Assembly (NCBI GenBank): GCA_947503035.1 | Contig: CANNCD010000001.1 | Location: 930,001 to 994,000, forward strand | DNA length: 64,000 nt | DNA from: an uncultured Halocynthiibacter sp. | Lineage (GTDB): Bacteria; Pseudomonadota; Alphaproteobacteria; Rhodobacterales; Rhodobacteraceae | Direction of reading: 5' to 3' | Part shown: in pieces, positions 35,910-55,956 of the stretch | How positions within the stretch are numbered: position 1 is the stretch's first letter | Layout: the number at the start of each line of letters is the position of its first letter | Translations under genes and position numbers: made by a program | Notes under the pieces: generated by a model | The model's input: the letters and a program-made list of their open reading frames with translations, nothing else | What the model was told of the DNA's origin: nothing | Database searches by the model: none

Positions 35910-36915
35910 CCGGCGCCAATGCCTCACGTAGCAACGGCAGACCCGCGTCGGCTTTGCCTGTGCCTTCGGACAGAATACGGCGCCATGCCCGTGCACCGGG
36001 GCGTCCCGCAAACAGACCCAACATATGGCGCGTCACCTGATGCATCCGTCCGCCAGTGGCCATGTGATCGGCGATATAGGGCATCATTTCCTCGACGATA
36101 TCCTCGGCCCGTTTGACCACACCGCCACCGTAAATCCGCGCATCCGCATCCAGCAAAATATCCGACGGCGTGTGATAGGCCGCGCGCCCGATCATCACCC
36201 CATCAAGACCCGCGTCCAAGAATTCGGTGGCCTGATCCAAGGTCGTGATGCCGCCGTTGATGGAAATATGAAGCTCCGGATAGGCGCGTTTCATCGCCAA
36301 AACCAGATCATAATCAAGCGGCGGAATGTCGCGATTTTCCTTTGGGGACAATCCCTTAAGCCACGCTTTTCGTGCGTGGATTTGCAAACGTTTCACACCC
36401 GCGTCGCGCATCTTTTCGATGAACGCAGGGAGGACCGCGTGCGGGTCCTGATCATCAACACCAATACGACATTTGACGGTCACCTCGGTATCACCCGCCG
36501 CCGCGATCATCTGGGACACACAGTCCGCAACCAGATCGGGCTTGGTCATCAAAATCGCGCCAAACATTCCCGATTGCACACGGTCCGAGGGGCAGCCCAC
36601 ATTCAGGTTCACCTCATGATAGCCGCGATCCACACAGATTTTCGTCGCCTCGGCCAGCTCGGTCGCGTCTGATCCGCCCAATTGCACCGCAACCGGATGT
36701 TCCTCGGGCGAGTAATCCAAAAGCTGCACCGCCCCACCCCGCACAAGCGCGGGCGCCGTCACCATTTCTGTATACAAAAGCGTGTGCTTGGACATCAAAC
36801 GATGCAAATACCGACAATGCCGATCCGTCCAATCCATCATCGGCGCAACGGAGAGGCGGGCGGCCCCTTGAACACGGGAAAGACCTGATTTCTTTGGTTT
36901 TTCACAATCAACCAT
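35896..36915 (-). CDS. dusA: tRNA-dihydrouridine synthase A (5' end rebuilt by mobile element)
   Basis: DusA is an FMN enzyme that reduces uridines 20/20a in the tRNA D-loop. The 339-residue TIM-barrel protein has SVAPMMDWTDRHCRYLHR, the NLNVGCPSDRVQSG loop with the catalytic Cys, and GVMIGRAAYHTP. The first ~19 codons (MVDCEKPKKSGLSRVQG) come from the integrated element: the 29-bp att copy lies at codons ~19-28, and the original-type start fragment is stranded at 54741-54809. The protein appears intact, so integration rebuilt rather than broke the gene. Confidence 0.95.
   Translation of the reverse strand: MVDCEKPKKSGLSRVQGAARLSVAPMMDWTDRHCRYLHRLMSKHTLLYTEMVTAPALVRGGAVQLLDYSPEEHPVAVQLGGSDATELAEATKICVDRGYHEVNLNVGCPSDRVQSGMFGAILMTKPDLVADCVSQMIAAAGDTEVTVKCRIGVDDQDPHAVLPAFIEKMRDAGVKRLQIHARKAWLKGLSPKENRDIPPLDYDLVLAMKRAYPELHISINGGITTLDQATEFLDAGLDGVMIGRAAYHTPSDILLDADARIYGGGVVKRAEDIVEEMMPYIADHMATGGRMHQVTRHMLGLFAGRPGARAWRRILSEGTGKADAGLPLLREALAPVTTG
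36832..36860. repeat. Left attachment site (29-bp direct repeat in dusA)
   Basis: Identical to 54741-54769. It starts atccatcatcggcg and codes (minus strand) for the conserved SVAPMMD segment of DusA. Known dusA-specific integrases use this part of the gene as their target. Confidence 0.9.
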
Positions 36916-36965
36916 TTTTCATATTTTCCCCGTTTCGGCCCCGTTTTGCCCCATTTTTGAATGAG

Positions 36966-37003
36966 GTGCTACGGGATGTAGCATTTTCTCAGTCATGTAG
37001 CAC
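36966..37003. promoter_or_regulatory. Left arm-type box cluster near integrase 1
   Basis: Three copies of a TGTAGCA(C) box sit between dusA and the integrase: an inverted GTGCTAC at 36966-36972, ATGTAGCA at 36976-36983 and ATGTAGCA at 36995-37002. The same box recurs inverted near the right end at 54663 and 54675. They are probably arm sites for the integrase, or an operator in its promoter. The rest of 36916-37187 shows no gene. Confidence 0.5.
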
Positions 37004-37187
37004 TATTCACAAACCAAGTTCCACCACTCGCTATCAGAGTGACATCGGCACCTCAACAGCGTGCTTCCTTCGACCCTATTTCCCTCAATCTCCTCCGATT
37101 TTTCAAAAAAAATCAAAATTCTATTTCCGCAAATTTCAAACGAACCGATGTCCAGAAAACCACAGCAAAACTTATACGGGAAACACC

Positions 37188-38333
37188 ATGGGAACCATCA
37201 TCGAACGCAAAAAGAAAAATGGAAAATCAAGCTTTACAGCCCAAATCCGAAAGAAGAAGAAAGGCGTGGTTATCCTAAACGTCGTCGAAACATTCTCGAC
37301 GCATTCGGCTGCTAAGAGTTGGCTGGCGAGGATGGAACGTAATATCGGAAAGAAGGATGGGTTGGAGCGCGCCATGCGTGCGAAGACGCGTAAATCCGTG
37401 TCACGGTGCATCGAAGACTACTCAGCCGCCTCTCCAATTGACTTTGGTAAGTCCAAGGCGCAAATGCTCAGCACGCTGAGCCGGCTCGAATTCGGCTCAA
37501 AAGCAATCGACAATTTGACTGCGCCCGACTTTCTCGATCTGGCAAAGGATCTACTGTCAGGGATTCAGGCTCCTCCGATCGACCCAAAGCGTGACACGCC
37601 AGAGCACTATACCCTGAAACCTCGGAAGCCTCAGACCGTCAATGGATATATGGTAACCTTGGGCACCCTCATTCGCTACGGTGGCCCAATCTCCCGAGTT
37701 ACAATGCCGATTGCAGAGTTTGAAGAAGCCATGCGCACCCTTAAACATCAACGGATGGTGACAAAATCTGACACGCGTTCGCGTCGCCCTTCAATGGAAG
37801 AACTCGATAAGCTGTTGGAGTATTTTTATTCCAGACATCAAGCTAACCCGCGTATCGTTCCAATGCACAAGATCATCGCAGCCGCCATTTTTGAAACACA
37901 TCGGCAAGGGGCGATCCTTTCTCAAACATGGTCAGACTACGACGAATCCAACGACCAAATCATGATCAGAAACATGAAGCACCCTATGCAAACAGTCGGG
38001 AATGACATGTTGCTGGATATTCGAAAGGAGGCACAATCGATCATCAATAGTATGCCTCGGGTCGATGACCGGATTTTTCCTTACAATCGAGATGTCATCA
38101 GCCGGCACTTCACGGATGCGTGCAAGATTCTCGAAATTGAAGACCTACACTTTCATGACCTCCGGCATGAAGGGATTTCCCGCCTCTTCGAGATGGGGTT
38201 AACAATCCCTCAGGTCGCTCAAGTATCAGGGCATCGGTCATGGCAAAGCCTTCAACGCTACACACAGATCAAGCACAGCGGCGACAAGTATGCGAATTGG
38301 AAATGGTGGCCTTTGATTGCCGCCTCGTCATGA
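37188..38333 (+). CDS. Tyrosine integrase of the dusA-specific family
   Basis: This 381-residue site-specific recombinase would integrate and excise the element at dusA. The start at 37188 (MGTIIERKKKNG) is chosen: upstream codons in the same frame run through the dusA promoter and read as low-complexity sequence. The N-terminal part is a DNA-arm-binding domain; the catalytic part shows the box I arginine in ETHRQGAIL, HDLRHEG (HxxR) and SGHRSWQSLQRYTQ (H/R and nucleophile Tyr). It is closely similar to the broken integrase at 54921-55956. All catalytic residues are present, so it is probably active. Confidence 0.92.
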   Translation: MGTIIERKKKNGKSSFTAQIRKKKKGVVILNVVETFSTHSAAKSWLARMERNIGKKDGLERAMRAKTRKSVSRCIEDYSAASPIDFGKSKAQMLSTLSRLEFGSKAIDNLTAPDFLDLAKDLLSGIQAPPIDPKRDTPEHYTLKPRKPQTVNGYMVTLGTLIRYGGPISRVTMPIAEFEEAMRTLKHQRMVTKSDTRSRRPSMEELDKLLEYFYSRHQANPRIVPMHKIIAAAIFETHRQGAILSQTWSDYDESNDQIMIRNMKHPMQTVGNDMLLDIRKEAQSIINSMPRVDDRIFPYNRDVISRHFTDACKILEIEDLHFHDLRHEGISRLFEMGLTIPQVAQVSGHRSWQSLQRYTQIKHSGDKYANWKWWPLIAASS

Positions 38334-38393: not shown

Positions 38394-40118
38394 TCAAAGC
38401 AGTGCTTCGAGCGTTTCTCGCAATTCATCAACTAAAACCTGATCCAAATCAGGAGGCACAGACTTGCCAAAACTGCTCGCGCGAGAAAGCCCTTTATCTT
38501 GTGCGGATTTACGGATTGCACTTACCAAGTCCTTTCCCAAAACTTTGTGCTGATCACCGTGCTCTGTTGCTGCCGCTTCCACCTCAACATCTCCAAATTG
38601 AGGGAGTTGGCCTTTTTTTGCCCCAGGAATCTTCAGACTTGCATCGTTTCTCTTCGTTCGACGTTTCTTCAAAGCCTTATTTTCAGCACAGGCCGCATTC
38701 ACAGCTTCGATCAAGATATCAGCCGCGGCTTCTCCACTCACCCCAAAATGAGCTTCGATAATACTTTGTTCCCCCCAATAGGCCTCCATATCCGAGCATT
38801 TCGTCACCCAGAAATGAAACCCCTTGTCCTGATATGGAGTTGCGAGCGCGACCACTTCTTCGGGCATCATGAAGTCCCGGTCTCTGTGGATAACAATCTC
38901 AATAGAATCTCCAAATAAGCCCTTGAGTCCATTTATCGTTTCAGGCGTAGGAAGCTTTCCAGTTCCATGAAAAGGCCAAATTGCTGTCGTTCTTTCTAAG
39001 TCTGGCCATTGAGAGAGTATCGATTGAAGCATCGCAGATCCGGTGTCTTCGGTCATCAATAGGATTCGCTTGTCGAGCAATCCCCAGCCCATCAGATTGC
39101 GAGCAGCCACATCGCCATTAGGTTGAACCGCACCATCTTTCATCCAAATGACCTTTGTATCCGCAGGCAAGGAACGCACAACAGAAGGGCTATGCGTGGC
39201 GAGAACGACTTGCGTGCCGAAGTCGCGAGCCGCTTCGGACAGCACAGAAATGAGTTTTTCCTGTGCTGTCGGATGGAGATGAGAGTCAGGCTCATCTACC
39301 AACAACAAAACAGGTCGAAAATAAACCAGATATGAAAAGATCTGAATGACTTGAAGAAAGCCAATTCCTGCGAGTTCAAGCGGCTTAAACCTCCTTGGGT
39401 CCGCCACCGCCATTTCAGCAGTTTGGAACTGCGCCAGAATTCTTGAATGCTGGTCTTCGTCGAAATCTACTTTGAGGGTAAGCTTGCCCATCACGCGTGA
39501 AACATAATCTTGCACTGTTTCGAGACCAGTCTTCCCGTCGGTTTCTTTCGCTTTTAGAAGATCCAGAACATTCCGAAGAACAGTATTGGCGTCCCCAGCC
39601 GCAGCCAATCGTTCTACTATGAGTTTGGTTCTCTTTTCTTCCAGCAAGGGAATCCCTGCCAAACCCGGGATGTATGCACTAATCTCTCTCCGCCGATCGC
39701 GTATCACGTTCGTTAAGGCATTTCCTGAAGGGATATGAACGCTAATACCTTCATTTCGTGCAGACTTTATCCAAAGGTCTGCAGATATGGAAACTCCCTC
39801 TGTGTCCTTCGCTTCAACTTTCAAATCAAGCTTTGGGGAATTCTGAAAGTTTCCATATTCAGCGCCGTTTCCGGAATTTCTATATTCGGGTGAAGGCATG
39901 TAAGTAGCGTCGTTTTCCGAGAGCGTGGCACCCTCCGTGCTCTTCCTGTTTGCGGATACGCTGCGATTGCGCCCAGATTGGAAAACCCAATGCATCGCTT
40001 GCAAAACTGAGCTTTTTCCGGAACCATTTGCCCCAACAAGCACGTTGAAATCCGCAAGTTCAAGGGTCGCACTATCAATTGCTTTGAAGTTTTGAACAGT
40101 TATTTTTGAAATTTTCAT
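38394..40118 (-). CDS. OLD-like AAA ATPase with TOPRIM-type C-terminal half
   Basis: This 574-residue protein has an SMC/RecF-type ATPase N-terminus (FKAIDSATLELADFNVLVGANGSGKSS, Walker A at 29-37), a Walker B with LLLVDEPDSHLHP, the ATHSP switch motif, then a likely TOPRIM nuclease part (RILLMTEDTGSAM; the acidic VIHRDRDFM). This order is that of OLD-family nucleases, which act in phage exclusion systems. It is last in a four-gene operon, separated from the GIY-YIG gene by 57 bases. The ATPase is certain; nuclease activity is inferred. Confidence 0.78.
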   Translation of the reverse strand: MKISKITVQNFKAIDSATLELADFNVLVGANGSGKSSVLQAMHWVFQSGRNRSVSANRKSTEGATLSENDATYMPSPEYRNSGNGAEYGNFQNSPKLDLKVEAKDTEGVSISADLWIKSARNEGISVHIPSGNALTNVIRDRRREISAYIPGLAGIPLLEEKRTKLIVERLAAAGDANTVLRNVLDLLKAKETDGKTGLETVQDYVSRVMGKLTLKVDFDEDQHSRILAQFQTAEMAVADPRRFKPLELAGIGFLQVIQIFSYLVYFRPVLLLVDEPDSHLHPTAQEKLISVLSEAARDFGTQVVLATHSPSVVRSLPADTKVIWMKDGAVQPNGDVAARNLMGWGLLDKRILLMTEDTGSAMLQSILSQWPDLERTTAIWPFHGTGKLPTPETINGLKGLFGDSIEIVIHRDRDFMMPEEVVALATPYQDKGFHFWVTKCSDMEAYWGEQSIIEAHFGVSGEAAADILIEAVNAACAENKALKKRRTKRNDASLKIPGAKKGQLPQFGDVEVEAAATEHGDQHKVLGKDLVSAIRKSAQDKGLSRASSFGKSVPPDLDQVLVDELRETLEALL

Positions 40119-40175
40119 TAGAACAGCTCACAATCGTTTTTGTTTTCAATCTCAGATGTGGGAGATTTCTTTTTT

Positions 40176-41375
40176 TCACCGCCGCTCAATGACTTGCGCC
40201 TTCACGTTGTATCTAAACAAATGAAGCTCCTGTTTCTGTAATAATGTGGCAGCTTGGCTCACATGCTCCGGAAGCACGTAGAACCACTCTTTTGGACGCA
40301 CCTTTTTGCCAAAACGGTCCAAAATGAAGAGTTCAGAAGGTCTGGCGCTCTCGAAGAATCTGTGAAGAAGTTGCTCTACCTTTTCCCGCGGGAGATTTTC
40401 CAGCTCAAAGGTGGCGACGACCTCAACCGGGGCCAAGAGAAACGTTGGATCGTTTCGCGCATCTGCAACGCGCCTCCTGACATCTTGGCTGGTTACCCCA
40501 ATTTTGTGCAGGATGTTTTTTTGGTCTTTGATCGCGGGATCCTCAGACAAGGATCGAGCAACATAGATCGTGCCTGAGACACCAACCCGATCAGCTTCCC
40601 ATTCAGCGTCCAACGGCCCGAGGCCAACTTTTTCGATTAACCTTGAGGCTTTGTCATCGTTCAACGACTTGCGGAAAGAAGACATGAGAGGGTCGCTTTC
40701 CGTGCCATTTGAAAAGATCACTCGCAGCCGGTGATCTCGAGACCCACCACGTGCTGTCATCTCCGATTTCTCTGCGATCATCGCCAGCAAACCATTACGA
40801 ATGAAAAAGTCGCCTTCAACTGGCTCAATCACAGCCCATTTCTTCACAGGTCTCGCCTTGCGCTCACCCGCTTCCAAAGCAGACTGCACCTCTTCGAACT
40901 TGTCAGCATATCTGTCGAAATCTGTGCACGGAACGAATTCCGCGCGATGATCGGGCAAGTGGCGCTCGGCAGATGGCGTTACATGGCGAAGCGCCACTGT
41001 ATCTTCGTCGAGCTCCAACGCATCATCGTCAAAAATGTCATCGAGACTGTCCGGAATCTGTTCTCCCAGAGGTTCTGCTCGCCAATTCGTGTGCGGAACA
41101 TCCTGTGCCACAAGCAATCCCAGGCGATCAGAGGCCAACATCTCATCCGTTGGGTTCTGTTTTAGCTTCTCCCATATCGTGCCCAAACGCATTTCTTCAT
41201 GATCCGCGGCATCTGGGTGAGGCAGATGGCCGGTTCGTTCAAAGAACGCGCTCACTTCGCCCAATACGGAAAGGCCGCGATCCAAGTTCTGTGATCCAGC
41301 GATGCGCGTCTTCACCACAAGCAATCCAAATTCGTCCGGTTCCGAAAAGATGTCGTCAAGCGTGGGGCGTGGCAT
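40176..41375 (-). CDS. GIY-YIG-like (T5orf172/MUG113 type) protein
   Basis: This 399-residue protein has a C-terminal ~100 residues that read as a GIY-YIG nuclease-like fold: GTIYVARSL for the GIY strand, ILHKIGVTSQDVRRRVADA for the YIG strand and following arginine, and a candidate catalytic Glu in REKVEQLLHRFF. The N-terminal 280 residues are charged and unrecognised. It overlaps the helicase stop by one base and so is translated with it. A nuclease or DNA-reading role within the defence-like operon is inferred. Confidence 0.72.
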   Translation of the reverse strand: MPRPTLDDIFSEPDEFGLLVVKTRIAGSQNLDRGLSVLGEVSAFFERTGHLPHPDAADHEEMRLGTIWEKLKQNPTDEMLASDRLGLLVAQDVPHTNWRAEPLGEQIPDSLDDIFDDDALELDEDTVALRHVTPSAERHLPDHRAEFVPCTDFDRYADKFEEVQSALEAGERKARPVKKWAVIEPVEGDFFIRNGLLAMIAEKSEMTARGGSRDHRLRVIFSNGTESDPLMSSFRKSLNDDKASRLIEKVGLGPLDAEWEADRVGVSGTIYVARSLSEDPAIKDQKNILHKIGVTSQDVRRRVADARNDPTFLLAPVEVVATFELENLPREKVEQLLHRFFESARPSELFILDRFGKKVRPKEWFYVLPEHVSQAATLLQKQELHLFRYNVKAQVIERR

Positions 41376-43450
41376 TACAGGATTCCCTCACGCATACGCT
41401 TGGCCTTCTGCGCCTTCAGCCATGACAGCGCTTCCGCCATTCGTTTTTCGAGAGCATCAGGCGAATTGGGATTGGGCTCTCTTCCCTCGGAAGCTCTAAA
41501 CGCTTTGATACGCGGCCAAAGCGTTCGAGCCTCATCTTCGGACATGTCGACTCGCATAGCGACCATTGCGGATTGCACATGTGCCAGAAGCTTGGAGTCC
41601 AACGATTTGGAGGCAACTTCAAACCGCTCTTGGAAGGCATTCACACTGTCAATCAGCTCAACGTCGATGTCACGCACGTTGATGAATTTCTTAACCATTT
41701 GCAGAAGGGTATTCGGCGCGTTGGGAAGATCGTCACCCTCATCGCTGTCATCAGCATGCATGGATTTGCCTTCAAAGGCGGATCCAGGTTCTGCCATGCC
41801 CTTTTGTTGTTCATCTCGGGCCAACGTCAGAATGTTCATATGCGCCGCCAAGTGCTGTCGAACGCTCTCGGCCTCTTCTTCATCGAGCGTCTCATACCTT
41901 TTCTCGATGATGTCGGTCAAAATCATCTGGGTTGCGACTTCAGGTGCCGTCTCAGGTGACAAAACCCGTTTGTCCATCGCCTGACAGGCCGCCGCCATCA
42001 GGTCATGCATATCTTGCTCACAGATGTCCTTGGAACGCTCCGTCGGCGGCTCAACGAGCCCCTTGATGCCGATCATGACGTTCCCCTGCCCGTCCACGGC
42101 CACAGGCTCCCGAATGTCTCCGTCCTCACGGCGATAAAATTTGAAGTTGGGTGCCAGAACTTGCTCCATCAACAGAGATCCCGAAATCGCTTTGAGCATG
42201 TCATTCACTGCGTCTGTAACAACACCTGTTTCAACGCCGGGCTCAGCCACGAGATTGGTAAATACGGCACGAGGCTTGCCTGGAGCATCGCGGGTTGCGC
42301 GGCCGATGATCTGCACGATCTCCGTCAGAGAAGACCGGTAGCCGATGGTCAGTGCGTGCTCACACCACACCCAATCGAACCCCTCCTTGGCCATCCCAAG
42401 CGCAATGATGATATCAACCTTGGCGTAATCAGCCGCATCATCCCGCTTTCCGTCTGGCCCTTTGATTTCACGAGATAGCGCTGCCTTAACGACATCCCGT
42501 CCGGGTCCATCATCGACCAGATCCGCAACTCTAATAAGACGCCCATCTGCGGTCTCGAGTAAGTCAAAGCCGGTGACTTCATCACGTCCTTTATGGGTGC
42601 CGATCAGGTCCATTATTTTACCGACTTCATTGTGTTTGTCGTCGAACGCTTCTGACGAACCACGATGAGGGATATGAATAATCGTCTTCTTCGACACATC
42701 CAGAACATCAACTAAACCATTGATATACTGTCCTTTATAGAATTGATAGTTCACCCCAAGCGCCTTGAGATGCTCATAGCCTTCCAGCTGCTCGTAGTAG
42801 CTGTATTTGATCGTTGAAAACTTTGCTTCGTCTTCGGCTCGAAGCACAGGGTCGGCGTCGCCTCGGAAATAACTCCCCGTCATCGCCATCAAATGACATT
42901 TCTCGCGCGCCACCAATGACCGCAAGATTACGCCCAAGCGATTGTGGTCAGATGCAGAGACATGATGAAATTCATCAATTGCAATAAAACAATCGTCAAA
43001 CGCCCCAGCCCCCTGATCCTCCACCACCTTGTCATAGGCAAACCGAAACGTCGCGTGTGTGCACACCAACACATCGGCATCCGACGCCATGAATTCCACG
43101 AACGCCTTAACCTTTTGGTCCGACGCATCCTCGCCCGTCAGACAAAGGTTCCATTTGTCATCGACCTCCCAATCGGCCTCAAACCCATAGGACGTCAGAT
43201 CGGTTGAGCGAAATGATCCACCAATGGATGTTTCAGGCACACAAACGATAACCTTTTCCCGCGCCTGATGGCGCAGCTTGTCCAATGCGATAAACATCAA
43301 CGCGCGGCTCTTACCCGCAGCAGGCGGCGCCTTCAAAAGCAGGAATTGCGCCGCGCGTGCGGCATAGGCCCGCTCCTGCATTTCGCGCATGCCCATTGGG
43401 TTGGTTGCGGATTTCTTGTGCCCGTATTGGACGTTCAACATCTGAGCCAT
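41375..43450 (-). CDS. SF2 (DEAD/DEAH-type) helicase
   Basis: This 691-residue ATPase has Walker A APPAAGKS (41-48), the DEFH box at 159-162, motif III TGS at 191-193 and motif VI QIIGRATR at 380-387, all as in HsdR/Res-type translocases. No nuclease motif is visible in the C-terminal 250 residues, which are helical and acidic. It starts one base after the methyltransferase stop and ends one base into the GIY-YIG gene, so the three are a coupled unit. Restriction-type DNA translocation is inferred. Confidence 0.88.
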   Translation of the reverse strand: MAQMLNVQYGHKKSATNPMGMREMQERAYAARAAQFLLLKAPPAAGKSRALMFIALDKLRHQAREKVIVCVPETSIGGSFRSTDLTSYGFEADWEVDDKWNLCLTGEDASDQKVKAFVEFMASDADVLVCTHATFRFAYDKVVEDQGAGAFDDCFIAIDEFHHVSASDHNRLGVILRSLVAREKCHLMAMTGSYFRGDADPVLRAEDEAKFSTIKYSYYEQLEGYEHLKALGVNYQFYKGQYINGLVDVLDVSKKTIIHIPHRGSSEAFDDKHNEVGKIMDLIGTHKGRDEVTGFDLLETADGRLIRVADLVDDGPGRDVVKAALSREIKGPDGKRDDAADYAKVDIIIALGMAKEGFDWVWCEHALTIGYRSSLTEIVQIIGRATRDAPGKPRAVFTNLVAEPGVETGVVTDAVNDMLKAISGSLLMEQVLAPNFKFYRREDGDIREPVAVDGQGNVMIGIKGLVEPPTERSKDICEQDMHDLMAAACQAMDKRVLSPETAPEVATQMILTDIIEKRYETLDEEEAESVRQHLAAHMNILTLARDEQQKGMAEPGSAFEGKSMHADDSDEGDDLPNAPNTLLQMVKKFINVRDIDVELIDSVNAFQERFEVASKSLDSKLLAHVQSAMVAMRVDMSEDEARTLWPRIKAFRASEGREPNPNSPDALEKRMAEALSWLKAQKAKRMREGIL

Positions 43451-46159
43451 CTATTTGCCCTTCTTGCTGCGTTTTGGTTTGGCAGCTTGCTTTTCAATTT
43501 GTTTAATTTTGGCGGCATAGAGCTTAAAGAGATGCTCCAACCGTTCGGTATCGTTGCGGAATGGTCGACCAATATACATGGTCTCAAGCAGCTCATCATT
43601 TTCCCGATGCACGGCGCGCAGGTCGTCGGGCATTTTGTCGGGGTCATAGAGCTCTGCTATGGTGGCGGGATAATGGCTATAGCGGGTCTTGAGGATCTTG
43701 CGCGCCGAGGCATTGAGCGCCTCAAGCTGATCGGATGAGAATTTCGGCACTGGGAAAGTGTTCCAACCGAGATCTTTTGAATACCGGACTCGCGACTCAA
43801 GTTGCCCGCAAACAGCCAATATCCAAACCTTGTGTAACAGGGAGCCAACTATTGAAAGGCACCAATCAGGTGCGTCATATAGCACTTGCGTCAGATTTGA
43901 AGCGATGCTCTCGTCACTAATGCGGTCTACTGGAAGATACATGCGCCTTTCAGATGTGACCGCAGGCACAAGGATCATATGGCTTTCCGCTGTTTTCTGC
44001 TCCCTAAAAGCATGTGGCCGCTCGGCAAGTGCTTTGCCGGATGCATCTTTCATATTAAGACGATTTACTTTGGTCTGTCCGATCCGCTCTTCAATAAAGG
44101 GAATAGACAGCGCTTCTTCCAGTTTGTCATCTTCAACCCAGATGCAAAACCTCTCCAGCCCTTTAACGACCTCTTGAGAGCCATAAATACGACGAATAAA
44201 TTTGCCAACTCTCGCATCAACCGAAATCGCATTTTTACTTGCTTCTGGAGAGAGGAGTAGAGCTCCTTCGTCATAAGGCATATTACCGAAAGACATTTCA
44301 GGTAAGCCATTGATATTTTTACGCGAAGGCCTAACCGCTGGCAACGATGAGTCAATCAAGTAGCCGTTGATCTTTGTGGCATTGAAGCGGATGCCATCCT
44401 CAAAAATATATTTCTCACCAGAAGATTTTTGCGCCAAACCCGCAACGATACAAGAAACAGCGGCATTCTTTGAGGCGTTGTTTCTCCATTTAAACGGTCG
44501 AACCGCAAACCGAATTTCCACGCCACTAATTAAAAGATGTGGCCAAAGCGTTGGAACTGACGCTCCTTGACATAACGAACTCGTAGAAACGAGTGCTGCC
44601 GATCCTCCATTTGAACGCACAAACTGTGCAGCTTTGAAATACCAAGGCGTAACGTAGTCCAAAGACCTGTAACTCTTCAGGTGCCCTTCATAGACAAAAT
44701 CCATATCAGCTTTCTGGCTTTTGTCTTGCTTTGCCTTCCCCCGAAATGGCGGGTTGCCAGTAATAAACACCTCTTCGCCCTCACCGGGTGACGGACAGAC
44801 TTCCTCCCAATCCACCCGCAGGGCATTGTCACACACGATATGCGCGCTTTCACGCAGTGGCAGGCTTGCTGGGCCTTGGCCGAAAACATCACGGAACACC
44901 GCGTTGGCCTGATACTCGGCGATGAACAACGCAAGCTTGGCCGTTTCCGCTGCAAAATCTGTAATCTCGATACCGTGGAAATGCGCGATTTTCACGGCAG
45001 AAAACATCACATTCTGCGGATTGTGGTCCAATTCATCCAACCGTTTCAGGACCCGCATTTCGCGTTCCCGCAGCTGACGGTATGAAACAACCAAAAAGTT
45101 GCCCGACCCACAGGCGGGATCAAACACACGGATGCCCTCAAGACGTGTCAGCACCCGTTTGAGCGCAGGGAGCTTATCCCACGCGGCATCGATCTCAGCA
45201 TCAAGATCATCCAAGAACAGCGGCCCGATCACCTTCATGATGTTCGGAACAGAGGTATAATGCATCCCCAATTCCGAACGTTGTTTTGGGTCTGCTACGG
45301 ATTGGATCATAGACCCAAAGATATCTGGGTTGATCTCGCGCCAGTTCAGATCACAGGCATCGCGCAGATAGCGATAGGACGACACGTCGAAGGTTGGCGC
45401 ATCGATTGTTCCAGCGAAAAGTCCGCCATTCACATATTCGAGCGGCCCTGCCCACCCAGGAAGATCGTCACGCTGATCCTTGGGGCGGTTCATCGCCGTG
45501 AATGCGTCGATGATGACCTCGCGCGCTTCCTCGCCCTTATTGCCGGAATGGCTAAACAGGATTTGACTGAATTGATTGTCGGGGAAAATGCCAACGTCTT
45601 CTGCAAACATGCAGAAAATCAGTCGCATCATCAATTGGTTCATTTCGTGGCGACGCTCATCTGTCGCCCACTCGGGATTGGCACGGGTCAGAGAGTCGTA
45701 AAGTTTGGCCAACTTTCCGGTGGCTTTGACATCAACAGGGTTTTCTTGAACCGCGTCATACCGTTCCTTTCCGGCGGCAGGCAGAAAGAAACCGAAATTG
45801 TCACCAATTTCATCAAAGCGGCAATGAAGCGTTTCGCCGCTAACTCGCTGCTCTGCGGCAATCATGTCGCCGTCCGTAGAAATCAGAACAGCAGGTTTAG
45901 CTGTCAATGTCCTTTTTGAACTGCGCAACGCCTCGAGGGTGACATCGACCATGCCGTCCATTGCAGGCGCATAGTGAAACTTCTTGTTCACCAAGACACC
46001 ACTGGGCTGGTCGGACTTGTTGGTCGTGCCATTGCGCAACTTAGCGATCGCAGCTTGGGCCACATCTGTTGCCTCTGCAAAGGCAAATGGAAATTCGATC
46101 GGGTCGAAAGGCTCAGACGAGATTTTCTCCAGGGCTTCAAAAATCTCTGTCGGGTTCAT
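43451..46159 (-). CDS. MmeI/Eco57I-like adenine DNA methyltransferase
   Basis: This ~902-residue protein has an N-terminal helical domain, LGMHYTS, the AdoMet motif I FDPACGSGNFL (near 346-356) and the catalytic NPPF (near 469-472) of N6-adenine methyltransferases, followed by a target-recognition-like region. This order resembles type IIG/BREX-type methylases, but no PD-(D/E)xK motif is evident at the N-terminus, so cutting would need a partner. The ATG at 46159 is preferred; a TTG at 46186 is in frame. It is first in the four-gene operon and probably gives self-recognition. Confidence 0.85.
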   Translation of the reverse strand: MNPTEIFEALEKISSEPFDPIEFPFAFAEATDVAQAAIAKLRNGTTNKSDQPSGVLVNKKFHYAPAMDGMVDVTLEALRSSKRTLTAKPAVLISTDGDMIAAEQRVSGETLHCRFDEIGDNFGFFLPAAGKERYDAVQENPVDVKATGKLAKLYDSLTRANPEWATDERRHEMNQLMMRLIFCMFAEDVGIFPDNQFSQILFSHSGNKGEEAREVIIDAFTAMNRPKDQRDDLPGWAGPLEYVNGGLFAGTIDAPTFDVSSYRYLRDACDLNWREINPDIFGSMIQSVADPKQRSELGMHYTSVPNIMKVIGPLFLDDLDAEIDAAWDKLPALKRVLTRLEGIRVFDPACGSGNFLVVSYRQLREREMRVLKRLDELDHNPQNVMFSAVKIAHFHGIEITDFAAETAKLALFIAEYQANAVFRDVFGQGPASLPLRESAHIVCDNALRVDWEEVCPSPGEGEEVFITGNPPFRGKAKQDKSQKADMDFVYEGHLKSYRSLDYVTPWYFKAAQFVRSNGGSAALVSTSSLCQGASVPTLWPHLLISGVEIRFAVRPFKWRNNASKNAAVSCIVAGLAQKSSGEKYIFEDGIRFNATKINGYLIDSSLPAVRPSRKNINGLPEMSFGNMPYDEGALLLSPEASKNAISVDARVGKFIRRIYGSQEVVKGLERFCIWVEDDKLEEALSIPFIEERIGQTKVNRLNMKDASGKALAERPHAFREQKTAESHMILVPAVTSERRMYLPVDRISDESIASNLTQVLYDAPDWCLSIVGSLLHKVWILAVCGQLESRVRYSKDLGWNTFPVPKFSSDQLEALNASARKILKTRYSHYPATIAELYDPDKMPDDLRAVHRENDELLETMYIGRPFRNDTERLEHLFKLYAAKIKQIEKQAAKPKRSKKGK

Positions 46160-46316
46160 CAATGGATCCAATAAGTTACAAATCAAAAAGGTGCAGCATA
46201 TGAAATGCTCTGAATATTTGTATTGGCAGCCTGCATACCGTGCAACCTAAAGATGCCGTTCACAGCTTTGATTGTTTTCGGAACTTGAAACTAACCCACC
46301 ACCATATTTCGGTGAC

Positions 46317-46480: not shown

Positions 46481-46546
46481 CATCCCTTGAGAGCAAGGGG
46501 TGTAACCCAAGGGCGTCGATTTCCTTCCTCAAAATCGGAGCCCATC

Positions 46547-47065
46547 ATGATGGCACTTGTGCCGGACGCTCAGCGTTCGATCACCGTCGGTGACGTTGTC
46601 ACCTTTAAATTTCCTTACAGGAACAACGGAGTATTGAAGAACAGACCTTGCATTGTTCTTCATGAAGATCACGAAACGGATGAAGTCGTGATTGCTTACG
46701 GGACAAGCAGCTTTGTTCCAGAAGAAACCAACAACCACGAGCTGACGGCATGTCGCCCAGAGATGCTATCACAATTTAATCTGGATAAGCCGACCCGTTT
46801 CATCTTCGAACGCAGGATCCGCGTTCGAAAAGATGATCCTCGGTTTTGCATTAAAGCAAGTTTAGGAACATCTCGGATTGGCGGGTTTCCTAACTATGCC
46901 GCTCCGATCATCAGCAAGAGCTACAAAGCACTTCCGTTTCGAGAAAAACGGAAAGAACGATTGGGCATCCATCCAGCCAAGCGGGAGGTGCCAAAGAGCA
47001 TTCTGAAGACGTGCCGGCTATTTGGTCGCCGACGAGGAAGACCGATGGCAGTTCAAGCTGCCTAA
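46547..47065 (+). CDS. PemK/MazF-like protein with C-terminal extension
   Basis: This 172-residue protein has an N-terminus with a PemK/MazF-like barrel start: ITVGDVVTFKFPYRNNGVLKNRPCIVLHEDHETDEVVIAYGTSS. The C-terminal third is basic (KSYKALPFREKRKERLG; GRRRGRP). CGGAG at 46536-46540 places the start at 46547. No antitoxin gene is adjacent; the upstream sequence is instead a long hairpin. A toxin role is only a suggestion; many single PemK-like proteins are uncharacterised. Confidence 0.55.
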   Translation: MMALVPDAQRSITVGDVVTFKFPYRNNGVLKNRPCIVLHEDHETDEVVIAYGTSSFVPEETNNHELTACRPEMLSQFNLDKPTRFIFERRIRVRKDDPRFCIKASLGTSRIGGFPNYAAPIISKSYKALPFREKRKERLGIHPAKREVPKSILKTCRLFGRRRGRPMAVQAA

Positions 47066-48197: not shown

Positions 48198-49415
48198 ATG
48201 ATACATCCAGCCTCCCGACTTGAAGTCGTTGTCCATTCCCGCGCTGATGGCCGCAGCGCCGTCAAATCCGCCGCCTATACCGCCCGCACCTCCTACCGGG
48301 ATGCGCGGCTGGGGCGGCGGTTTCGGGCGGGCAAACGAGGCGGGCTTCTGTCCCATGAGCTCATCAACTGGTCAGGAACCGCCCAAGACCTGTGGAATGC
48401 CGCCGAAAGCGCTGAGACGCGAGGCAATGCCCGGATCATCCGGGAACTGCGCCCCTCACTGCCAGCCGAGCTACCGCTTGCCGAGCAGGTGCGGCTTGTT
48501 CGAGGATTTGGCCTTTGGCTACGGGATGAATACGGGGTTGCTGTTCAAGCCGATATCCACGCGCCCCGGTTCCTCGACCGCAACACGGAAAAGCTGCACG
48601 CCTCCGGCAAGCTTGAACTTAGGAAGGAAAGCTATCAGTCGGCGCTGTTTGATCCCGATCTCACCAATCGGAATTTCCACGCCCATATCCTGATGACGAC
48701 GCGCGCGGTCTGTCCGCAGACGGGCGCATTCAGTGCAAAGACCAGAATTCTCGATGACAAGAAAACGGGACCGGAGGAAATCCTGCGGATCAGGCAGGAA
48801 TGGGAGAAACGCACCAACGCAGCGCTGAAGCGGATCGGGTCGTCGGCGCGGGTCGATCTGCGCTCCTACGAGACGATGGCGAAAGCAGGCGATGCGCCTG
48901 AGGGGCTGGTTGCCCAAGACCACTTAGGCCCTCGCCGAGCCGAGCGGTCGCGCCATCTCGAAGAGCAGGGAAAAGACACCAGCTCGGCAGGCAAGCGGCG
49001 TGGGGCGATCAAACAGCGCAACCAAGACGTCTGGAAATCTTGGCTGGAGCTGCGCGCTCTGGAGCGTGAGAAAGGCCGCCAGCCGGCAGAAGCGCTGGCT
49101 CGAGAGCGGGAAGCCGCGCGCAAGAAAAAAGCCGATGCTGAAAAGCACCGGCTTCGAATGGCCCAAACGGTAGAGCAAGCTGAGGCAGCGCTGTCAGATG
49201 CGACGCAGCTCGACAGCCTCAAGACGGGGCCTGATCTTGCTTCGGCTCTGGCTTGGGCTTTAAGCGAAGAGGACGACTCACCTTGCGCGGCGCCAGAGTT
49301 CTCCTCACCGGTCGACTTGGAAACTTACGAGCCGCCCCCCGAGCGCCCTCAGCCGGAGCCGGTTTTGTCGCCACAGGTTCAACTGGTTCGACGGCGGGGC
49401 CCTCGGTCTCGCTGA
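48198..49415 (+). CDS. MobA/MobL-family relaxase
   Basis: This 405-residue relaxase would nick the element at oriT to start transfer. The N-terminal ~220 residues are the MobA/MobL domain: KSAAYTARTSYRDARLGR near the start, and the metal-binding HxH in NRNFHAHILMTTR (~155). The region after 230 is a charged coiled coil (ALEREKGRQPAEALAREREAARKKK) and a proline-rich tail. Some family relaxases carry helicase or primase domains; here a primase is encoded separately at 50169. The last 197 bases are antisense to the KfrA-like gene. Confidence 0.88.
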   Translation: MIHPASRLEVVVHSRADGRSAVKSAAYTARTSYRDARLGRRFRAGKRGGLLSHELINWSGTAQDLWNAAESAETRGNARIIRELRPSLPAELPLAEQVRLVRGFGLWLRDEYGVAVQADIHAPRFLDRNTEKLHASGKLELRKESYQSALFDPDLTNRNFHAHILMTTRAVCPQTGAFSAKTRILDDKKTGPEEILRIRQEWEKRTNAALKRIGSSARVDLRSYETMAKAGDAPEGLVAQDHLGPRRAERSRHLEEQGKDTSSAGKRRGAIKQRNQDVWKSWLELRALEREKGRQPAEALAREREAARKKKADAEKHRLRMAQTVEQAEAALSDATQLDSLKTGPDLASALAWALSEEDDSPCAAPEFSSPVDLETYEPPPERPQPEPVLSPQVQLVRRRGPRSR

Positions 49416-50168: not shown

Positions 50169-51461
50169 ATGAAACACACCAGTCCCAGCGAATTCGCCCC
50201 GATCCTCGACCTCACTGCCGAGGAATACTTCCACCTGTTGCATCCCGAAGGATCGCGCGGGAAAGCCGCAGTTCTGTGCAAGCTCGGGGCAGATGACGTT
50301 CAAACGTATAGTTTGGAGCGCGTGCCCCTGCTTATGCAGATGCCTCAACTGGTTGACCGGACCAGCTTCCTGTCACTGAACCGATTTTGGTCTGGGCGCA
50401 AATTGAAGTCGCTTGCCGCGCTCAACGCGCTCTATGTCGATCTCGACTATTTCCACATGCCCCAATGGCAGGGAAAATCGCCGGCCGAGGTTCAAGGTGC
50501 CTTCGTCGCCCATCTGCAGATCTTAGGCATGCCGCAGCCGTCCGTGTTCCTGCAAACCGGGCGCGGTCTTGCCGCCATCTGGTTGATCCAGCCGATTCCC
50601 GTATCGGCGCTGCGGCGCTGGCAGGGAGCGATGGGCGCACTGATCGACCTGACGGGCGCCTTCGGGGCAGACAAGGTCTGCAAAGATGCCACCCGCGTCT
50701 TCCGCATCCCAGGCACCCTTAATGAAAAGTCGCGAAAGGAAGTTCGGGTCAGCGGCGGATGTCGAGAAAGGTATCAATTCGACGATCTGGCAGATCAGAT
50801 TTACCGGGCCGCAGGCAGGCCGACCCGCGCCGAGCTGCAAGAACGAAAGACGCGCAAGGCTAAGAAGCACAAGGCGAACACCACAATGCCACGTGGGCTG
50901 ACGCAAGCCGAGCGGTTCAGGTTGATCCACAATGATCTGGCGGTCTTTCGGGATGCCCATGGCGGTCTAATCCCGATAGGGATTCGAAACACATGGCTGC
51001 ACTTCTACGCGACAAGCCTGACCCATTTGCCAGATGTCACAAATTTGGAAGCTGAAATCCTGAGGGCCGCGCAGAGCGCGACGCCGGGGCTGGACCGGAA
51101 CGAAGTGACTGCGATCATCAGGCAGGCCACTGAGAAGGCAAAGCTGCGCACCAGCGCGACTTCATGGGCTGATGGTCGCTATCATTATAAGGGCGCAACG
51201 ATGGCCGAACACTTGGGCATCACGCCGACACTCGCCCGCGCTCTTGGTCTGAAGCAGGTGATCCCCGAAGAGGAAAGAAAACGTCGCAAGGCGGAGGCCG
51301 AACGGCAACGCCGTGCCGATAATGGCGCTATGTCCCGCAACGAATATCTGGCGGCCAACAGCGCCTCGCGCACCAAGCCTTGGCTCGCACTCGAGATCAG
51401 TCGGACTAAGTATTACGAGCTTAAACGCGCAGGAATGCTGCCTGAACCAGTGACGGCGTGA
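50169..51461 (+). CDS. Plasmid-type primase / replication protein
   Basis: This 430-residue protein looks like an archaeo-eukaryotic-type primase (PrimPol/RepB' class) used by plasmids and mobile elements: the acidic pair in YVDLDYFH (near 96-103), a QTGRGLAAIWLI segment, and KDATRVFRIPGTLNEKS. The middle is a basic linker (RTRKAKKHK-like), and the C-terminal part (NEYLAANSASRTKPWLALEISRTKYYELKR, split) looks like a helix-turn-helix. It would prime replication of the excised or transferred element. The primase motif pattern is clear; the exact class is not assigned. Confidence 0.72.
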   Translation: MKHTSPSEFAPILDLTAEEYFHLLHPEGSRGKAAVLCKLGADDVQTYSLERVPLLMQMPQLVDRTSFLSLNRFWSGRKLKSLAALNALYVDLDYFHMPQWQGKSPAEVQGAFVAHLQILGMPQPSVFLQTGRGLAAIWLIQPIPVSALRRWQGAMGALIDLTGAFGADKVCKDATRVFRIPGTLNEKSRKEVRVSGGCRERYQFDDLADQIYRAAGRPTRAELQERKTRKAKKHKANTTMPRGLTQAERFRLIHNDLAVFRDAHGGLIPIGIRNTWLHFYATSLTHLPDVTNLEAEILRAAQSATPGLDRNEVTAIIRQATEKAKLRTSATSWADGRYHYKGATMAEHLGITPTLARALGLKQVIPEEERKRRKAEAERQRRADNGAMSRNEYLAANSASRTKPWLALEISRTKYYELKRAGMLPEPVTA

Positions 51462-54681: not shown

Positions 54682-54740
54682 AACATCCAAGGCGCCCCAA
54701 AGTTTGAGCAAAACAATCGCTTTCAGCAAGCCTCGCGCCC

Positions 54741-54769
54741 ATCCATCATCGGCGCAACGGAGAGGCGGG
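54741..54769. repeat. Right attachment site (29-bp direct repeat)
   Basis: Identical to 36832-36860 in dusA. Beyond it the dusA frame continues to an alternative start, so this copy joins the element to the older dusA 5' end. Confidence 0.9.
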
Positions 54770-54809
54770 AATTCCAGTAAATACCTGAATTTACGTCGTT
54801 ATTTTCCAT
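54741..54809 (-). pseudogene. dusA: Stranded 5' fragment of dusA
   Basis: Read on the minus strand from ATG 54809, MENNDVNSGIYWNSRLSVAPMMD gives a plausible DusA N-terminus that breaks off at the repeat. Excision of the element would rejoin it to the dusA body at 36831. It was itself probably supplied by a second element, whose integrase remnant begins 110 bases to the right. Confidence 0.75.
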
Positions 54810-54876
54810 TTCAGCCCTCACATTTCTAGCCGATATTAGGTCCATTTGGGCGTGTTTTTGCCCCATATTCCGTACT

Positions 54877-54918
54877 TGGACAACAAAAGTTGTCCATTTA
54901 ACGAGATTTAGTTGTCCA
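54877..54918. promoter_or_regulatory. GTTGTCCA box cluster near integrase 2
   Basis: TGGACAAC (54877-54884) and GTTGTCCA (54889-54896) form a perfect palindrome around AAAA, and a third GTTGTCCA follows at 54911-54918, two bases before the integrase-2 start. One inverted plus two direct boxes is the same plan as the TGTAGCA boxes before integrase 1. Confidence 0.5.
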
Positions 54919-54920
54919 GC

Positions 54921-55956
54921 ATGGCCCAAATCCAAATTCGTCACCGCAAAGACGGTTCAATAGCATATGTCGCCAAGATTGCCATTCGAAAAAATGGCGT
55001 CTGGGCCCATCGCAAAGCGCGCGGGTTTGCTACGAAATCCACCGCCGCGCATTGCACCGTGTCCCGTTCATAAATAGGCTACAAATCATCCAACACAGGA
55101 AAATGATATGGATATCCCTAAATTCAATCTTGAGCTTGTTCCCCTTTCCGACGAGGCCGAAAAGGTCATGGGATTTCAATGGGCGGACCCTGATGTGGGC
55201 TCCAGATCCAAGCTCGGCGGGCAACCCGAGGGGATCAGCGCCGAAGACGCACCCGTTTGTCCATCTTGCGCTGAGACGATGACATTCCTCTGCCAGATTG
55301 ACTCGGTCGGAGATGACCTTGTCTTTGCCGATGTCGGCATTGTGTATGTCTATATCTGCTTTGGCTGTTTCGAGGCCAAAGCGTTCGTAAACAGCGGATA
55401 AAGCTTGAGCGGCTGGCATAGCGCATTCCCGTTCATGCGCAGGCCATGAAGGACGCGTTTATGGTGTGGAGTCGACTTGGCATCGCCGGCAAATCAAAGA
55501 AACGCGATCGGCGCCCAACATTAGAGGAATTGAACGCCCTTACCGGCCTGTTCAAAGGCAAGCATCGCGCGCGCCCGCGGTCGGCGCCCATGCACTTGAT
55601 TGTCGGGTTCGCGTTGTTTTCCACCCGACGCCAAGAAGAAATCACACGGATCACATGGGACGGGCTAGATCAAGCCCATAGCCGCGTGTTCATCGCCGAT
55701 ATGAAGCATCCCGGCGACAAGGCCGGCAATGACGTCTGGTGCGACCTACACCACAGAAACCTTCAGCGCATCGTTCACCCGCGCCTGCAAGGTTCTAGAA
55801 ATCGAAGATTTAAGGTTCCACGACCTACGCCACAAAGGCGTGACGCGCCTGTTTGAGATGGGCAACACGATCCCACAAGTCGCGGCCGTATCCGGTCACA
55901 GATCCTGGTCATCGCTTCAACGATATAGCCATATCAGGCAATCGGGCGACAAGTAA
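54921..55956 (+). pseudogene. Broken dusA-type integrase (second element)
   Basis: Three pieces match integrase 1 in order. The N-terminal piece (54921-55073, MAQIQIRHRKDGSIAYVAK to KSTAAH) then diverges and stops. A middle piece (about 55417-55740) has RRPTLEELNAL and STRRQEEITRITWDGL. The C-terminal piece in another frame (about 55753-55956) has LRFHDLRHKGVTRLFEMG and SGHRSWSSLQRYSHI. About 140 codons between pieces 1 and 2 are replaced by a small ORF, and about 25 codons plus the frame are lost between 2 and 3. It cannot make a working enzyme. Confidence 0.85.
55108..55401 (+). CDS. Small Cys-motif protein inserted in the integrase remnant
   Basis: This 97-residue protein has an AGGAAA ribosome site before its ATG. 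It contains GSRSKLGGQPEGIS, reminiscent of the KxGGxPxW segment of DUF1963/YwqG-like proteins, and two CxxC pairs (CPSC, CFGC) that may bind zinc. The end (FADVGIVYVYICFGCFEAKAF) also fits that group. It is short for the family, so it may be a stand-alone mini-domain or a fragment. It sits exactly where the integrase middle is missing. Confidence 0.5.
   Translation: MDIPKFNLELVPLSDEAEKVMGFQWADPDVGSRSKLGGQPEGISAEDAPVCPSCAETMTFLCQIDSVGDDLVFADVGIVYVYICFGCFEAKAFVNSG

Follow-up and report, generated by a model that had tools for sequence, protein, structure and literature searches.

A DnmA-YeeB-YeeC-type methyltransferase, helicase and GIY-YIG triad next to an OLD-like ATPase gene on a mobilizable element of an uncultured Halocynthiibacter sp.

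Described relatives and the layout of the locus

The genes dnmA, yeeB and yeeC form a conserved cluster (PMC9973331), which in Bacillus subtilis encodes a homologue of MmeI without REase motif, together with a helicase and a T5orf172 protein (PMC7261158, PMC9973331). DnmA of B. subtilis forms m6A at GACGAG (PMC9973331, PMC7261158), and the cluster as a whole has been proposed as a possible Type I-like restriction-modification (R-M) system, with DnmA itself being reported to have no endonuclease activity (PMC7261158). No phage phenotype was found for the cluster in B. subtilis (PMC9973331), and deletion mutants of the homologues in Vibrio crassostreae are reported to have a raised phage sensitivity (PMC9973331).

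In the window (i.e. the whole analysed stretch of DNA, 64 kb long), four long ORFs were called that are all intact and lie head-to-tail on the minus strand:

43451..46159, minus strand: methyltransferase with ATG start; MmeI family, gamma-class (NPPF), N6-adenine-type; DnmA-like
41375..43450, minus strand: SF2 helicase/translocase; YeeB-like
40176..41375, minus strand: GIY-YIG (T5orf172/MUG113) putative nuclease; YeeC-like
38394..40118, minus strand: OLD-like ATPase with TOPRIM-like C-terminal motif; probable passenger gene outside the conserved triad

The junctions are tight, with 0 bp between methyltransferase stop and helicase start, a 1-bp overlap of helicase and GIY-YIG gene, and a gap of 57 bp from the latter to the ATPase gene, so that the four genes, their coordinates and their close coupling as given by the initial annotation were all confirmed. 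The methyltransferase frame extends further upstream to a TTG at 46186, but since most relatives align from approximately residue 8-10 of this longer frame, the ATG at 46159 is probably the start. Divergent from the methyltransferase gene lies a small plus-strand ORF (46487-47065), which by eye resembles a protein of the PemK/MazF type and has no Pfam or NCBIfam match.

The first three genes are of the same three types, and stand in the same order, as dnmA-yeeB-yeeC in B. subtilis and V. crassostreae, i.e. an MmeI-family methyltransferase without REase motif, with a helicase as the first and a T5orf172/GIY-YIG protein as the second gene downstream. By gene set and order, on which this likeness is based, the triad corresponds to a DnmA-YeeB-YeeC-type cluster, which is a known (albeit poorly understood) kind of system, and the earlier proposal that the operon represents an undescribed one is therefore not borne out. 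The triad of the window differs from the described clusters in that it is alphaproteobacterial, is carried by a dusA-integrated mobilizable element, and has an OLD-like ATPase gene next to it.

Type I and Type ISP (LlaBIII) enzymes likewise combine a gamma-methyltransferase and target-recognition domain (TRD) with an SF2 motor and a nuclease, whereas the triad consists of three separate polypeptides, has no HsdS, and contains GIY-YIG instead of PD-(D/E)xK. A Type I R-M system does not fit, as the profile searches found neither an HsdR with PD-(D/E)xK and motor nor separate HsdS domains, the recognition domain being fused to the methyltransferase. Hma (PADLOC), which is composed of the HmaA helicase, the HmaB m5C methyltransferase and the HmaC ATPase (PMC8565338), has a parts list that is alike by name, but its methylase is of the m5C type and its definition contains no GIY-YIG gene; it was rejected on methylase type, and no Hma model is among the PADLOC matches listed. 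BREX, DISARM and MADS were rejected because their hallmark genes (PglZ and BrxC; DrmA and DrmB; the MAD set) are missing, the only matches being to shared methyltransferase or ATPase folds, with NCBIfam scores that, among those listed, are all below the cut-off. A paper on BREX diversity (PMC12839542) does not mention the triad, and the GIY-YIG gene mentioned in PMC12409345 belongs to PD-T4-3, not to this triad.

Membership of the conserved unit

Baiting with the helicase yielded 80 loci from named genomes, 76 of which contain the methyltransferase, helicase and GIY-YIG genes in this order and on the same strand, while two of the four exceptions are explained by contig ends (L049, L068). The gap between methyltransferase and helicase is at most 100 bp in 57 of these 76 loci, and that between helicase and nuclease in 68. 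When the GIY-YIG protein was used as bait, a relative was found in 24 of 398 genomes of the phylum (this genome included), and in each of the 23 others the helicase gene directly adjoins it. The triad is also present on plasmids of Staphylococcus, Lactiplantibacillus, Rhodococcus and Synechococcus and is thus widespread, the helicase of the window being 43-44% identical to those of the Bacillota plasmid triads.

In none of the 80 loci was a relative of the ATPase detected around the triad (threshold E<=1e-5), and 67 of the 76 triad loci extend for 2.5 kb or more past the nuclease gene. When the ATPase served as bait, relatives turned up in 12 genomes (counting this one) out of 296 of the family and on 9 plasmids, and no triad genes were found near them in the 8 genome and 4 plasmid contexts that were read (one of these contigs spans just 6.4 kb, and the very shortest fragments were left out). 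Since the three genes co-occur under the helicase bait, the helicase adjoins the nuclease under the GIY-YIG bait, and the ATPase was near the triad in none of the loci obtained, the conserved unit is, judging from gene neighbourhood, that of methyltransferase, helicase and GIY-YIG protein, which settles its membership at three genes instead of four.

The initial annotation had regarded the four genes as one system and had suggested their co-occurrence across genomes as a check; they do not stay together, and hence its four-gene reading fails. Were the four genes one system, the effector would be the OLD-like ATPase-TOPRIM protein, with the triad only sensing and marking. The ATPase gene is indeed intact, on the same strand and only 57 bp away, and OLD-family ATPases are nuclease effectors in other systems. 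However, its relatives are absent from the flanks of all 80 triad loci and, in the contexts read, sit elsewhere without a triad, and two near relatives, L002 and L059, have one and the same GmrSD-like gene in its place. In L002, the helicase of which is 85% identical to that of the window, the same type of integrase (60% identical) adjoins the triad and a dusA-like gene. A four-gene system is thus very improbable.

The three proteins and their proposed action

All five Pfam domains of MmeI are present in the methyltransferase, and its alignment to the MmeI structure 5hr4 (E=1.6e-142) begins only at residue 126; DPACGSGNF and GNPP are kept across its relatives. With MmeI and Type IIL (IIG) enzymes it has the methyltransferase, helical spacer, TRD and C-terminal domains in common, but it differs from them in being without PD-ExK and in travelling with separate helicase and nuclease genes. 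A pattern search for PD-ExK, the nuclease motif of the N-terminal domain, found it in 0 of 70 triad methyltransferases, compared to 4 of 4 positive controls, which were MmeI-family proteins of related genomes (L084-L087, e.g. DLFIPGKLVIEQK).

The PADLOC model PDLC03598 (REase_MTase_IIG), which also matches in B. subtilis, matches the methyltransferase over its full length (E=1.8e-257). Together with the full MmeI domain set, this would fit a stand-alone Type IIG enzyme with unrelated neighbours, but such an enzyme is hardly conceivable here, given the lack of PD-ExK throughout the triad methyltransferases, the nearly constant adjacency of helicase and nuclease, and the reported inactivity of DnmA as an endonuclease (PMC7261158). 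A Type IIG identity was rejected on the missing motif. Judging from its domains and motifs, the methyltransferase is an MmeI-family protein with its own target-recognition domain and not a complete Type IIG enzyme, and because PD-ExK is absent, the 'Type IIG' label misleads, which matters since it is a widely used defence database that names the protein a complete Type IIG in spite of the absent nuclease motif. A second MmeI-family frame (1062 aa) is present in the same genome outside the window (G000:C1:145974-147539).

The helicase contains DEAD/ResIII domains (Pfam), with SF2 motifs that are invariant across relatives (Walker A PPAxGKS, DEFHH and QIIGRATRD (QIIGRxTRDA)), and a domain search for a nuclease domain found none in it. 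Its predicted model, with a pLDDT of 64.7, is of modest confidence; the fold matches that it gave were to SF2 helicases, Type ISP LlaBIII being among the weak ones. In phage genomes, the helicase was found in only two partial Acinetobacter records. Many triad helicases are publicly annotated as 'pseudomurein-binding repeat-containing protein' (plasmid records, e.g. L131), a name that is probably an annotation artefact.

The third protein has T5orf172/MUG113 domains of the GIY-YIG superfamily (Pfam), with GtxYV and KIGVT motifs conserved across relatives and G268, Y271, K291-I-G, R302, E334 and EWF being invariant, and also has an N-terminal region of ~260 residues. A fold search with its model (pLDDT 76.5, pTM 0.38) gave nothing below E=0.001, the middle region having only weak matches to SH3/Tudor-like barrels, and a PDB sequence search with the helicase and GIY-YIG profiles gave zero matches. 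Overall, Pfam domains and conserved motifs support the parts list originally put forward, i.e. a self-marking methylase, an SF2 motor, and GIY-YIG instead of PD-(D/E)xK, and the likely defence role proposed with it is supported as well.

It seems likely that the first three genes constitute an intact DnmA-YeeB-YeeC-type R-M system, in which cutting by the GIY-YIG protein is directed by the methyltransferase and driven by the helicase, and of which the ATPase is an independent passenger. The methyltransferase would bind an asymmetric site via its own recognition domain and methylate adenine on one strand, thereby marking self DNA. At an unmethylated site, it would recruit (or be in complex with) the SF2 helicase, which would translocate with ATP and deliver the GIY-YIG nuclease, upon which the DNA would be cut. 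Of this scheme, we infer the complex formation, the translocation, the GIY-YIG cutting, the target motif and the activity in this host.

When only one strand is modified, replication gives rise to one daughter duplex that carries no modification, a problem that is known from MmeI-type enzymes, for which a need to compare opposed sites has been argued (PMC3874165). For such a comparison a translocating helicase would be a natural means, and by moving between sites that lie far apart the system could distinguish incoming unmodified DNA from host DNA that is half-modified just after replication. A comparison of distant sites, as envisaged for the triad, is common to Type III and ISP enzymes and, as proposed, to MmeI.

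The triad could also be a decayed relic whose methyltransferase alone is still functional, acting as an orphan epigenetic regulator. This has been suggested for B. subtilis, where phage and transformation tests were negative (PMC9973331, PMC7261158). However, none of the three genes of the window is truncated and all have conserved motifs, the helicase and nuclease genes have stayed together in each of 23 independent loci, and among the triad proteins it is the helicase that is most strongly conserved across relatives, the reverse of decay, making a relic rather unlikely. The chances are about even that three-polypeptide triads of one-strand-modifying MmeI-type recognition, separate SF2 translocase and GIY-YIG nuclease represent a distinct, unnamed class of ATP-dependent restriction in several phyla, masked by the 'Type IIG' database label and recurrently having accessory defence genes between or behind their genes. 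Whether phage is restricted by DnmA-YeeB-YeeC is disputed, the answer having been negative in B. subtilis and reportedly positive in V. crassostreae, and the many intact alphaproteobacterial copies are well suited to this question.

Accessory genes and the mobile element

The passenger ATPase has AAA_15/AAA_21 domains (Pfam) and a TOPRIM-like ED...HRDxDFM pattern that is kept among its relatives, although a Pfam search gave no match to OLD-like_TOPRIM. It has the AAA_15/OLD-like ATPase fold in common with Gabija, Septu, PARIS/AriA and OLD ATPases, but it scores far below the true members of these (its GajA match is partial and weak, with 4.5e-22 versus 1.3e-263 for L072), and it is accompanied neither by a partner of the GajB or PtuB kind nor by an adjoining UvrD-type gene. 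Membership of Gabija was rejected, there being neither a full-length GajA match nor a GajB partner.

The gene behind the triad differs between genomes and is often a defence gene (Zorya, Gabija, DRT3, Lamassu, SIR2 or GmrSD-like), with genome G503 having a Gabija A+B pair in this position. Of 20 genes that follow the triad immediately and on its strand, 9 (a raw count) have a match to a known defence protein at E<=1e-30, namely ZorA (twice), GajA, a GajB-like UvrD helicase, Drt3a (twice), LmuA, SIR2 and PD-Lambda-2_B. Because this slot is variable and often holds another defence gene, the OLD-like ATPase is, going by genomic context, probably one more passenger in it. The changing defence genes make the triad a useful marker for defence cargo; around dnmA homologues, 1.8 defence-family genes have been counted, compared to 0.56 in random regions (PMC9973331).

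Genes have also been inserted inside the triad, between methyltransferase and helicase. These include an Abi_2-like gene with similarity to PD-T4-5, RhuM, a Schlafen/AlbA_2 protein, DarT-like together with GmrSD and PDDEXK_4, and an addiction-module/RelE-ParE pair. The Abi_2-like (PD-T4-5-like) insert, of ~275 aa, is recurrent (L008, L010, L012, L013, L016, L024, L043, L049, L052 and L062), and in 7 of these ten loci a second, unnamed gene of ~260 aa is present as well.

The operon is carried by a mobilizable element of 17.9 kb that is integrated at dusA (a name given by reading of the sequence) and has a G+C content of 51.9%, versus 57.9% in the left flank:

36829..36860, plus strand: left attachment repeat, inside the 5' end of the dusA-like gene
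36894..38333, plus strand: tyrosine integrase, dusA type (Phage_integrase, 3.4e-11)
48198..49415, plus strand: MobA/MobL (MobQ-type) relaxase (domain and NCBIfam-type profile searches)
50169..51461, plus strand: RepB-type primase/replication protein (RepB_primase, 3.8e-7)
54738..54769, plus strand: right attachment repeat, identical to the left one at 31 of 32 positions

The tyrosine integrase, the MobQ-type relaxase and the 31/32-bp direct repeat at the dusA-like gene bear out the view of the initial annotation that the operon is cargo of a mobile element. Past the right repeat (54738-55956), a short remnant resembling the start of dusA was seen by eye, together with fragments of a further, disrupted tyrosine integrase, which suggests that this site had already received a tandem insertion earlier.
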